Shown piece by piece: positions 12,320-48,799 of a stretch of DNA of 64,000 nucleotides. Source of the stretch: Collimonas arenae (GTDB lineage: Bacteria; Pseudomonadota; Gammaproteobacteria; Burkholderiales; Burkholderiaceae_D); the NCBI RefSeq assembly GCF_001584165.1, contig NZ_CP013233.1, positions 1,488,001 through 1,552,000 on the forward strand, in the 5' to 3' direction. Position numbers and translations under genes: made by a program. The notes beneath the pieces are model-generated. The model made no database searches. It was given only the letters and a program-made list of their open reading frames with translations, and was not told where the DNA came from. Numbering within the stretch: position 1 is the first letter of the stretch; each line of letters opens with the position of its first letter.

Positions 12320-13303
12320 ATGAGCAATAACGAATTTGACAATATGGAAACGGCCATGTCCGACAAAAAAGAGGGTTGGGAACGCGAGCTGCTGGAAAAA
12401 CTTGCCTACGCCTCGTTGCGTGAGCAGCGTGCGCGGCGGCGCTGGGGTGTCTTCTTCAAGCTGGCATTTCTTGGTGTGATCTGCTTCGCGTTCTGGTTGG
12501 GCATCAATTACGAAGGTTCCGATACGCAGACCGTCGGTGCGCACACCGCGCTGGTGAAAATCAGCGGGGCGATCGAATCGGAAGGCAACGGTTCTGCCAG
12601 TGTCGTGGTGCCGGCGTTAGACAATGCTTTCGCCGCAGATGATTCGGTCGGCGTCATCCTGCGCATCAATAGCCCCGGTGGTAGTCCTGTGCAGGCCGGC
12701 ATCATCAATGATGAAATCGTGCGCCTGCGCAAGGAGTATCCGAATAAGCCCTTGTATGTGGTGGTCGATGAAATGTGTGCATCGGGCGGCTACTATATTG
12801 CTGCTGCGGCCGACAAGATTTACGTCAACAAGGCCAGCATTGTCGGCTCGATCGGCGTGCTGATGGATGGCTTCGGTTTCACTGGCTTGATGGACAAGGT
12901 TGGCGTCGAGCGGCGCCTTTTGACTGCTGGCGAAAACAAGGGCTTCCTTGATCCATTCAGCCCGATGAGCGCGACCCAGAAGGGTTATGCCCAAGACATG
13001 CTGGCAGAGATTCATCAACAATTCATCGATGTCGTTCGCAAAGGCCGTGGCGCGCGCTTGAAGGAAACGCCGGAAACCTTCTCCGGCCTCTTCTGGAGCG
13101 GCTCAAAGGCAGTTGACATGGGGTTGGCGGATGGCTTCGGTACGGTCGATAGCGTTGCCCGCGATGTCTTGAAGCAGGAAGATATTGTCGATTACACCAA
13201 GAGCGAAGGCTTGCCTGAGCGCGTGCTGAAAAAATTCGGCGTGGCGATGGGTGCGGGTGTCGTGCAATCGTTGATGAGCAACGTCAAGCCGGTGTTGCGT
13301 TGA
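12320..13303 (+). CDS. sppA: signal peptide peptidase SppA-type S49 protease
   Basis: 327 residues. The protein has one N-terminal membrane helix (about 46-64, FFKLAFLGVICFAFWLG) and a single S49 protease domain, the short form. RINSPGGSPVQAG, then the nucleophile region CASGGYYIAAAADKIY and the lysine in AGENKGFLDPFSPM give the Ser/Lys dyad. It degrades leftover signal peptides in the inner membrane. The first ATG is taken as start, although ATG codons at residues 9 and 13 are alternatives. The protein ends at a conserved-looking VKPVLR. Confidence 0.93.
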   Translation: MSNNEFDNMETAMSDKKEGWERELLEKLAYASLREQRARRRWGVFFKLAFLGVICFAFWLGINYEGSDTQTVGAHTALVKISGAIESEGNGSASVVVPALDNAFAADDSVGVILRINSPGGSPVQAGIINDEIVRLRKEYPNKPLYVVVDEMCASGGYYIAAAADKIYVNKASIVGSIGVLMDGFGFTGLMDKVGVERRLLTAGENKGFLDPFSPMSATQKGYAQDMLAEIHQQFIDVVRKGRGARLKETPETFSGLFWSGSKAVDMGLADGFGTVDSVARDVLKQEDIVDYTKSEGLPERVLKKFGVAMGAGVVQSLMSNVKPVLR

Positions 13304-13397
13304 GTTTTATTTAATGCTTGTTTCGTGGTGCGGCGGAAAAAAAATTGCCGTTGCATCATCGAAGAAAAATCGGCATATCGTAATACCGTAATTCGCC

Positions 13398-13425
13398 TTG
13401 TATCTGCGCGATCCTGTCGTATATT
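13398..13425 (+). promoter_or_regulatory. sigma-70-like promoter of the structured RNA locus
   Basis: TTGTAT (13398-13403), a 16-bp spacer and TATATT (13420-13425). It is positioned about 7 bp upstream of the presumed start of the structured transcript and well downstream of the sppA stop. The -10 matches consensus at 5 of 6 positions, the -35 at 3 of 6. Confidence 0.5.
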
Positions 13426-13447
13426 AAAAGGACTCGAGGAATAGCGA

Positions 13448-13510
13448 ATGGAGGAGGCGACTATAGATATATCAACATTGTTGGCCACTCAGTTGAAATT
13501 GTTCGGGTAG
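13448..13510 (+). CDS. possible 20-residue leader peptide
   Basis: ATG at 13448 is preceded by GAGGAA at good spacing and by the promoter-like sequence at 13398. It encodes MEEATIDISTLLATQLKLFG and stops at TAG 13508-13510, just before the hairpin series. No homologue is known to me. It could be a leader peptide, a dual-function RNA's peptide, or chance; the ribosome-binding site is the only positive evidence. Confidence 0.25.
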   Translation: MEEATIDISTLLATQLKLFG

Positions 13511-13646
13511 CAAAAAGTCGATTCCATAGCAAAACAACCCCTTGCATTGGAGTAGTAAGTTGACTACCTGGCAAACCACCGCATCGCGGATGCGGCACCG
13601 AGAAGTTTTCGACTTCTCAAGATAATGTCTTTCGAGACAGGCAAAT

Positions 13647-13677
13647 ACGGCGACGGCGCAATACCGTCGCCGTTTTG
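13647..13677 (+). terminator. intrinsic terminator of the structured RNA (also faces rsmI-like gene)
   Basis: Stem CGGCGACGG / CCGTCGCCG (13648-13656 and 13664-13672) extended by one A-T pair, 7-base loop, then TTTT on the plus strand. Read on the minus strand it is followed by TATTTG, so it could also end transcripts of the leftward gene that stops at 13714. Confidence 0.75.
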
Positions 13678-13713
13678 CGTTCAGCGCGTATTTCTGTGGA
13701 TGTAGCTTGAAAG

Positions 13714-14466
13714 CTATTGCGCGAGCAGCAGGAAAACGGTTGGTTTCTTGTGAAAGTCCGGCGCCTTGCCGGCGGCCAATGCGGCCTTCCATTTTGCCGC
13801 TGTTTGCGTCTTGATCGATTCCGATGACAAAGTGAGATCGGTGGCGACACAAATCAAAGTGCCGGCCTGGCAATTGTTGGCCAGCGCCTCCAGGAATGCC
13901 GTGTTGCGATACGGCGTTTCAATGAATAGTTGTGTTTGTTGCTCTTGGCGTGAGCGTTGTTCCAATGCCTTGATCCGCTTGTTGCGCTGTTCAGCGTCTG
14001 TCGGCAGGTAGCCATTGAAGGCAAAGCTTTGTCCGTTCAGGCCGCTGCCCATCACCGCCAGCAACAGCGACGACGGGCCAACCAATGGCCGAACCTGAAT
14101 CGAATGCGCATGCGCCAGCCGAACCAGATTGGCGCCGGGGTCGGCCACCGCCGGCACGCCGGCTTCGGAAATCAGGCCGGCATCACGCCCGGCCAGCAAC
14201 GGCGCCAGCAATGCCGGCAGGGCGTTGCTGGCGGTATTCACGTTGAGTTCGGCAATCTCGATTTCCTGCAGCGGCTTGGTCAGCGTTTGTGCCGCGTCGA
14301 TCAGCTTCAGGAAAGCGCGCGTGGTCTTTGCATTTTCAGCAATGAAATAATCGAGGCGGGCAGTGAGAGCCTGGACTTCGAGTGGGATGACCGCTGCCAG
14401 CGGTTGCTTGAGTTCGCTTGTGTCTTGACCCAGCGTATTGGGAATTAAGTACAGGATGCCTGGCAT
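13714..14466 (-). CDS. SAM-dependent methyltransferase, RsmI/tetrapyrrole methylase superfamily
   Basis: 250 residues. It has the COG0313 arrangement: an N-terminal LYLIPNTLG strand, the SAM-site loop GLISEAGVPAVADPGANLVRLAH, and VRPLVGPSSLLLAVMGSGLNGQSFAFNGYLP. RsmI methylates the 2'-OH of C1402 in 16S rRNA. This copy is shorter than canonical RsmI (about 280-290) and its N-terminal motif deviates; betaproteobacteria commonly carry this second paralogue next to maf, so it may have a different target. The ATG is 9 bp below the maf stop, so the two are likely co-transcribed. Confidence 0.85.
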   Translation of the reverse strand: MPGILYLIPNTLGQDTSELKQPLAAVIPLEVQALTARLDYFIAENAKTTRAFLKLIDAAQTLTKPLQEIEIAELNVNTASNALPALLAPLLAGRDAGLISEAGVPAVADPGANLVRLAHAHSIQVRPLVGPSSLLLAVMGSGLNGQSFAFNGYLPTDAEQRNKRIKALEQRSRQEQQTQLFIETPYRNTAFLEALANNCQAGTLICVATDLTLSSESIKTQTAAKWKAALAAGKAPDFHKKPTVFLLLAQ

Positions 14467-15244: not shown

Positions 15245-15745
15245 ATGAGTGCTTTTATCATCGACGCGTTTGAGTATTCGCGCCATAAAGAGCGCCGTGA
15301 AGGCGAAATCGCCGTGGCTGACTTGAGTCGCCTAGCCGCTGAATCGGCTGATCGTTCCGGCGTGCTGCATTGGGTTCTCGTTGGTGGTGTTGATCAGTTG
15401 GGGCATCCCCAGTTGACGATGTCAGTAAGCGGTTCCATCAAGATCATGTGCCAGCGCTGCCTGACGCCGTTTGCTTTTGACATCGATTCGGAATCGGTGC
15501 TGGTGTTGGCAAAGGACGAAGAGAGTGCAGATGCAATCGATGCACTTCTCGATAATGATGAAATTGATGTCATCGTTGGCACTAAATCACTAAATATCGT
15601 TGAATTGGTTGAAGATGAGGCTTTGTTGGCCTTGCCGCTATCGCCGAAGCATCCGGTTTGTCCGGATCAGTCTGCGCTTGAAGGTGTGCAAAGTGTCAAA
15701 AAAGAATCGCCTTTCGCGATGTTGAAGAATTTGAAGCAGCAGTAA
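15245..15745 (+). CDS. yceD: YceD/DUF177 family protein
   Basis: 166 residues. DUF177 proteins are encoded just upstream of rpmF across many bacteria and have been linked to 23S rRNA/ribosome assembly. Family marks here are CQRCLTPFAFDIDSE near residue 75, an acidic central segment (DALLDNDEIDVIVG) and LPLSPKHPVCPD near 145, the C-x-x-C and P-x-H-x-x-C pattern. The protein ends shortly after, as expected. It is first in the lipid/ribosome cluster, driven from the promoter at 15186. Confidence 0.92.
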   Translation: MSAFIIDAFEYSRHKERREGEIAVADLSRLAAESADRSGVLHWVLVGGVDQLGHPQLTMSVSGSIKIMCQRCLTPFAFDIDSESVLVLAKDEESADAIDALLDNDEIDVIVGTKSLNIVELVEDEALLALPLSPKHPVCPDQSALEGVQSVKKESPFAMLKNLKQQ

Positions 15746-46754: not shown

Positions 46755-48454
<1,700 letters not shown>

Positions 48455-48458
<4 letters not shown>

Positions 48459-48799
48459 TGTTTGATCCCGTCGAGATTGTCTGAAGCGTGTGGCTGCAAT
48501 GCGCCCATTATCTTGCCGCTGAATCCATACACCATGCGGTCGCCGGCCAGTTCCACCAGCTCGACTGTGCGTTTTTGCCCCGGCTCGAAGCGGACTGCGG
48601 TGCCGGCTGCGATGTTGAGCCGCATGCCGTAGGCGTCCTGGCGTTCGAACAGCAGGGCCGGGTTGACTTCGTAAAAATGAAAGTGCGAGCCGATCTGGAT
48701 CGGCCGGTCGCCGCTGTTGGCGACGGTGACGGTGTTGCATCGGCGGCCGACGTTGAGTTCGATATCGCCGGGCTGGATCAGCATTTCTCCTGGGATCAT
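48455..48799 (-). CDS. ureB: urease subunit beta
   Basis: 114 residues. [19 protein letters not shown] and [17 protein letters not shown] are the family marks. A structural subunit of the (alpha-beta-gamma)3 trimer. It starts 20 bp after ureA and its stop overlaps ureC. Confidence 0.98.

Follow-up and report, generated by a model that had tools for sequence, protein, structure and literature searches.

Introduction

Trans-acting intergenic small RNAs (sRNAs) with C-rich or anti-Shine-Dalgarno loops include the Neisseria sibling sRNAs and ncS27 of Burkholderia, and protein-sponge RNAs of the CsrB/RsmZ type are built as a string of stem-loops carrying GGA triplets. The RNA described here is encoded between sppA and rsmI in the window, namely the 64,000-nt stretch of the Collimonas arenae genome (4.72 Mb, single contig) that was analyzed in this study. 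Like the Neisseria sibling sRNAs and ncS27, it has a predicted promoter of its own, an intrinsic terminator and, in Collimonas and the nearest relatives (g15), an exposed CCCC-type loop; unlike them, it matches no Rfam family, its main body comprises three conserved hairpins, and many other genera show, as judged by eye, a GGAGG-type segment and no C-loop. The string of stem-loops and the GGA triplets are shared with CsrB/RsmZ, but GGA is only slightly enriched here and the C. arenae genome contains no CsrA match. The compact multi-stem build with an intrinsic terminator at the end also resembles the structured sRNAs bound by ProQ, as presented in PMC12001967 and PMC11912907, except that the U tail is short in the present RNA.

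A literature search with supplementary files outside its range returned no published report of this RNA, which leaves absence from print unproven, and the main texts of PMC7011215, PMC6337395, and PMC3521395 contain no mention of sppA. We regard it as a new family within a familiar class, the intergenic sRNAs of bacteria. It adds a widespread, well-supported and Rfam-unlisted RNA family to environmental bacteria, with members in Collimonas, Glaciimonas, Herminiimonas, Noviherbaspirillum, and Oxalicibacterium, and its fixed genomic address, promoter motif, and covariance model allow annotation and experiments to begin. The RNA probably regulates other genes; strong evidence supports the RNA as such, and moderate evidence at best supports any single mechanism.

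Results and Discussion

Distribution of the RNA in Oxalobacteraceae

The interval was compared with 4227 Rfam families, as the original prediction had proposed, and no family was matched at its gathering cut-off or at relaxed thresholds. The best-scoring family, RF02432 (SpF25 sRNA), reached 18 bits where its cut-off is 48 (E 2.1) and was rejected as a chance match, the likeness consisting of a terminator-type hairpin in both. The interval had been said to lack the core sequences of RNase P, tmRNA, 6S, and SRP RNA, which agrees with the Rfam result; 6S RNA (RF00013) did not match here, and its one match in the genome is located at C1:892242-892421.

A DNA search of 60 genomes, the C. arenae genome included, detected the interval in 19: all 15 from Collimonas and 4 of the remaining 45. 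For named genomes, an rsmI search provided 80 loci among the matches listed, and 16 of these 80 were matched by model R1 with an E-value of 1.2e-4 or better. All 16 were situated directly downstream of rsmI on the opposite strand, and they belonged to Collimonas (2), Glaciimonas immobilis, Herminiimonas (3), Noviherbaspirillum (4), an Oxalicibacterium metagenome-assembled genome (MAG), and five other MAGs. Model R2, a covariance model covering the final four stems (28 rows), was built without the degraded locus L015 and without close relatives such as L004, L010, L011, and L013. It detected the RNA in 133 of 245 Oxalobacteraceae genomes, representing 22 of 44 genera; the E-values of both home-made models are rough. 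Each matched genome carried one copy except G130, in which two different copies (L151 and L152) were observed, the second at a contig end. When R2 was applied across the order with strict filters, under which weak matches can be lost, 2 of 200 genomes were matched and both were Collimonas. The R2 matches support the earlier suggestion that the RNA belongs to a betaproteobacterial family of small RNAs; in the genomes sampled, these RNAs are confined to one bacterial family, the Oxalobacteraceae. In the rest of the Oxalobacteraceae, the RNA was lost, was never gained, or has diverged beyond recognition.

A search of the C. arenae genome for second copies gave five matches at E-values up to 5: the locus itself, its opposite strand, L104 (E 2.65), and L101 (E 0.001) and L102 (E 0.03), the last two of which were taken, after reading, as terminator-like chance matches.

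Genomic context

The features of the locus are listed in Table 1. The gene names sppA and rsmI are those of the original prediction and are presumptive; likewise, the genes rluC, HAD, Rieske, and maf are named presumptively from their protein sequences.

Table 1. Coordinates of the RNA, its parts, and the adjoining genes in the window
Feature	Position	Strand	Description	Basis
sppA, upstream anchor gene	12320..13303	+	signal peptide peptidase	
Small RNA interval	13397-13679	+	flanked by sppA (+) and convergent rsmI (-)	
Predicted promoter	13397..13425	+	CTTG-N19-TATATT (TTGTAT, 16-nt spacer, TATATT)	conservation
Predicted transcript	13432..13679	+	approximately 248 nt	inferred from promoter and terminator
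20-codon frame	13448..13510	+	judged not a gene	ATG not conserved
Purine-rich Shine-Dalgarno-like motif	13450..13466	+	GGAGGAGGCGACUAUAG, no conserved start codon	5' segment
Hairpin 1 (Collimonas and g15)	13505..13568	+	outer plus inner stem, 15 pairs	19 loci
C-rich loop of hairpin 1	13534..13544	+	ACAACCCCUUG	19-locus alignment
Hairpin 2	13579..13595	+	CCGCAUC/GAUGCGG	7/7 pairs double-changed, 93.9% of cells paired (99 sequences)
Hairpin 3	13600..13618	+	GAGAAGUUUUCGACUUCUC	6/7 pairs double-changed, 85.7% of cells paired (99 sequences)
Hairpin 4	13626..13639	+	UGUCU-UUCG-AGACA	5/5 pairs double-changed, 89.4% of cells paired (99 sequences)
Intrinsic terminator	13647..13677	+	stem 13647-13673, GCGCAAU-type loop, short U run	terminator scan; covariation, 10/10 pairs double-changed, 98.8% of cells paired (99 sequences)
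rsmI, convergent neighbour	13714..14466	-	16S rRNA methyltransferase	

The gene order was surveyed in 20 R2 loci with long flanks, which were picked across genera with weak scores included. In 17 of them, the RNA follows sppA and shares its strand; in two (L142 and L144), it follows the Rieske gene and no sppA was found in the gap; and in one (L152), it adjoins a contig end and no neighbouring gene was found. Of 60 further short loci, a selection from the 133 genome matches, 54 had the end of sppA upstream in the same orientation. For 12 of the 20 long-flank loci, the contig-end locus being counted among the 12, the flanks yielded no rsmI. By gene order, the RNA is tied to the end of the rluC-HAD-Rieske-sppA operon and not to rsmI, and the constancy of its place after sppA shows that the weak covariance-model matches are real.

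The spacer between sppA and rsmI measured 230 to 618 nt in the 15 named loci in which the RNA and both genes were found. Among the 16 RNA-less loci with both genes, it measured 13 to 125 nt in 12 and 283, 878, 970, and 1198 nt in the remaining four; these comparisons draw on an 80-locus rsmI set of which 49 loci, including the RNA match L067, had no sppA in the stretch searched. Apparent dispersed inverted repeats were seen by eye downstream of the RNA in L008 and within the sppA-rsmI spacer of L056.

Conserved hairpins and terminator

The segment 13420-13680 folds with a z-score of -4.46, and none of 200 shuffled sequences was as stable. The opposite strand folds equally well (z-score -4.95), which consecutive perfect stems would lead one to expect. 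When 267 stretches of 120 nt were sampled across the window, with 16 shuffles for each and 100 for the hairpin region, 3 reached the z-score of that region; therefore, folding energy alone is no proof of an RNA gene, and comparison between genomes is decisive.

When 13 loci were aligned with MAFFT alone, double changes were seen in 9 of 29 predicted pairs against 2.4±1.3 in shuffled alignments, and on the measure of further pair types the result was not beyond chance, 23 of 500 shuffles being as high. The number increased to 23 of 29 (shuffled, 10.2±2.1) in a model-fitted alignment of 30 rows, one of them antisense, and to 28 of 29 (shuffled, 19.4±1.8) in an alignment of 99 rows, from which L015, identical or nearly identical loci (e.g., L144, L147, L148, L205, L211, L213, and L214), and some others had been omitted. 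In the latter, 92.4% of cells were paired compared with 36-50% in slid versions. The 30-row and 99-row alignments, like the one underlying R2, were fitted to the model and lean toward the structure; the 13-locus alignment and the two described below are unfitted. Since kinship inflates shuffle tests, a rank test and the slid controls were used. With an average-corrected G statistic as the ranking score for all scorable column pairs, predicted base pairs took the first 4 places of 4931 and 11 of the first 15; 3 of the 25 predicted pairs that were scored ranked low (324, 852, and 1541), and 4 of the 29 could not be scored. The original prediction had been made to depend on compensatory stem changes among relatives, and such changes were found in the 13-locus and 99-row alignments and in the rank test.

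A MAFFT alignment of 31 loci from other genera recovered hairpins 2-4 and the terminator, with 10 of 34 pairs double-changed. Hairpin 3 was near-invariant in these loci and showed no double changes. An additional stem, GUAGUU/AACUAC, which closes the 5' segment, was likewise near-invariant, with one-sided changes only and no double changes.

Hairpin 1 was analyzed in an alignment of 14 Collimonas and 5 Glaciimonas-like g15 loci. Its cells were paired in 93.7% compared with 20-47% in slid versions, and 6 of 15 pairs were double-changed against 2.9±1.0 in shuffles; on one of five measures, further pair types, the result was not beyond chance (235 of 500 shuffles). The ACCCCU core of its loop was invariant in all 19 aligned loci, L015 being excluded. 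Five consecutive perfect hairpins had originally been described in this region. Hairpins 2-4, including the one with the UUCG loop, and the terminator stem are present and covary. The first of the five is most likely the local stem GUAGU/ACUAC at 13552-13567, which by eye can form in 7 of the 19 rows; it competes with hairpin 1, which does have compensatory changes.

The comparison establishes a promoter, three covarying hairpins, a covarying terminator, and a fixed place after sppA. It also establishes a purine-rich 5' segment in many members and, for Collimonas together with the g15 loci, a hairpin whose C-rich loop has an invariant core. The view that this multi-stem RNA did not arise by chance is borne out by covariation, the rank test, promoter conservation, and the distribution of R2 matches, and the locus is almost certainly a real structured RNA gene.

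Promoter and predicted transcript

The promoter-like pair noted originally is present and is conserved. Of 103 distinct loci, 94 carry the pattern CTTG-N19-TAYRNT ahead of the hairpins, compared with 0.4±0.6 in shuffled sequences, and the spacer was 16 nt, in the sense of TTGNNN-TATANT, in all 94. The distance from the promoter to the hairpins varied from 67 to 254 nt in the loci examined. The search pattern takes the last match; in L180, this is a second match that lies downstream of the first and is due to chance. Among the nine loci without the pattern, seven belong to g56 (L138 and L199-L204) and have another -35 region, and two belong to g66 (L142 and L212) and have a spacer that is 1-2 nt longer. 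The g56 loci L199-L204 retain the GGAGGTCGA segment and the hairpins without the CTTG -35 element, so the promoter of g56 differs. A simple promoter scan of the window did not return this plus-strand promoter, the evidence for which is its conservation.

A cytosine beside the -10 element belongs to the stationary-phase sigma consensus. Such a C adjoins the -10 element in 73 of the 94 promoters, which is a mere hint of stationary-phase sigma dependence. In the C. arenae genome, the rpoS model match (C1:2551028-2551872) is split over two frames, and rpoS looks interrupted there unless the assembly is in error; hence, nothing was built on sigma dependence.

The transcript start was placed at the 7th base past the -10 element and its end was taken from the terminator. 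By the same reasoning, the RNA is predicted to be approximately 170 nt long in most genera examined and approximately 250 nt long in Collimonas.

L015 originates from G001, the sole reduced Collimonas genome searched (1.7 Mb). Pairs of hairpin 4 and of the terminator are broken in this locus, and its promoter letters are altered to CATG and TATCTT instead of CTTG and TATATT. Such decay is in keeping with a regulator that can be dispensed with while the genome shrinks.

Purine-rich 5' segment

The purine-rich stretch at 13450-13466 on the plus strand reads GGAGGAGGCGACTATAG. Among 94 loci, 47 contain GGAGG in the 5' segment (shuffled, 8.5±2.5) and 63 contain GGRGG there (shuffled, 12.6±3.3), and a segment of the GGAGG...CGAUAUA type is present in about half to two thirds of the members. 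The motif is absent from some loci, e.g., L145, L098, and L140, and may therefore not be the seed everywhere. In single-sequence folds, the GGA triplets of the 5' segment were only partly unpaired. The 5' segments of 42 loci contained AGGA 35 times (shuffled, 20.5±4.1) and GGAGG 27 times (shuffled, 4.3±2.1), and GGA as such was slightly enriched (83 against 71.8±5.6), with unpaired probabilities mostly below 0.6. The 20-codon frame that had been proposed behind a good ribosome-binding site does exist in the C. arenae sequence; however, it is not conserved, its ATG being present in 2 of the 15 Collimonas genomes, of which this is one.

Proposed function and alternative explanations

The function that we favor, at about an even chance, is that of a stand-alone Oxalobacteraceae sRNA which is transcribed from its own promoter and acts in trans by base-pairing. 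RNA polymerase would start behind the sppA operon and stop at the built-in terminator. The purine-rich 5' segment and, in Collimonas, the ACCCCU loop would serve as seeds, the former pairing with pyrimidine-rich target stretches and the latter with Shine-Dalgarno-like ones, and this pairing would alter the translation or stability of the target RNAs. Hairpins 2-4 and the terminator would shield the RNA and give an RNA chaperone, either ProQ-type or Hfq, a place to dock. Base-pairing is preferred because the putative seeds, which lie outside the main hairpins, conserve their letters, while most stems conserve shape rather than letters. ProQ-domain and Hfq proteins are both encoded in the C. arenae genome, and an Hfq-type terminator would have a longer U run than the present one. 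According to PMC12001967, FinO-domain proteins bind intrinsic terminators, which makes docking at the present terminator plausible. In the C. arenae genome, a perfect 11-nt complement of the C-rich loop, as well as a complement of the 16-nt purine motif with up to 2 mismatches, was found only in the opposite strand of the RNA itself. As the usual pairing is short and imperfect, the lack of such long complements neither helps nor excludes a trans-acting sRNA.

The conservation of hairpin shapes while the letters change would also suit an RNA that titrates an RNA-binding protein as a decoy or scaffold, in the manner of CsrB/RsmZ or as an RNA dedicated to ProQ, and both the presence of a ProQ-domain protein and the enrichment of AGGA and GGAGG in the 42 5' segments agree with this. 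The CsrA form of the idea was judged unlikely because PF02599 (CsrA) had no match in the C. arenae genome, three of 14 control genomes being positive, and the enrichment of GGA itself is slight; overall, a protein-binding role is rather improbable. The 5' element could instead engage the ribosome. Its AAGGAGG or GGGAGG followed by CGAU resembles a Shine-Dalgarno element without a start codon, and by eye it is complementary to what we take to be the 3' end of 16S rRNA, GGAUCACCUCCUU. Pairing between the two is doubtful, and in several other genera the GUAGUU/AACUAC stem may hold the element in a closed loop. It is just as doubtful that the RNA is a 30S decoy or an initiation brake rather than an ordinary mRNA-pairing sRNA, although contact of such an element with the ribosome, if true, would be an unusual action for a bacterial sRNA. 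If GGAGG were a real ribosome-binding site, the RNA would be a short-peptide messenger or a dual-function RNA, perhaps with an AUA or AUU start. By eye, AUA or AUU follows GGAGG at 5-6 nt in many loci and short open frames come after it; however, AUA/AUU is lost while the G-run is kept in L164, L170, L174, L176, L179, and L196-L198, for which reason a peptide initiated there was rejected. Together with the rarity of the ATG in Collimonas and the variation of the short frames between genera in length and residues, also judged by eye, this makes a messenger role very unlikely.

The position of the RNA at the end of the rluC-HAD-Rieske-sppA operon raises the question of whether it is merely the structured 3' end of the sppA message, that is, a 3'-UTR-derived RNA or an elaborate bidirectional terminator. 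Its regular occurrence behind sppA, in long-flank and short loci alike, is in line with this explanation, as is the terminator, whose A-tract and U-tract pair, so that it could act on either strand. Against it, the 94 loci with a promoter of fixed spacing speak for separate transcription, and the RNA is kept in L142 and L144, where no adjoining sppA was found, as well as in loci where rsmI was not found. Moreover, a mere terminator needs neither three further covarying hairpins nor a conserved 5' segment, and we consider this origin unlikely. A cis-acting leader with an attenuator, as had been suggested originally, would fit hairpins that end in a terminator, but it is contradicted by the gene order: rsmI is convergent, the next plausible plus-strand gene begins only at 15245, past rsmI and another minus-strand gene, and the RNA stays with sppA, including where rsmI was not found, and not with any downstream gene. 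A leader is thus hardly credible.

Elsewhere in the window, RF02514 (5' ureB sRNA) matched the plus strand at 48023-48308 with 142 bits. This segment is antisense to a long urease alpha-type open reading frame (46755-48740, minus strand), and the match probably represents protein-coding conservation and no RNA.
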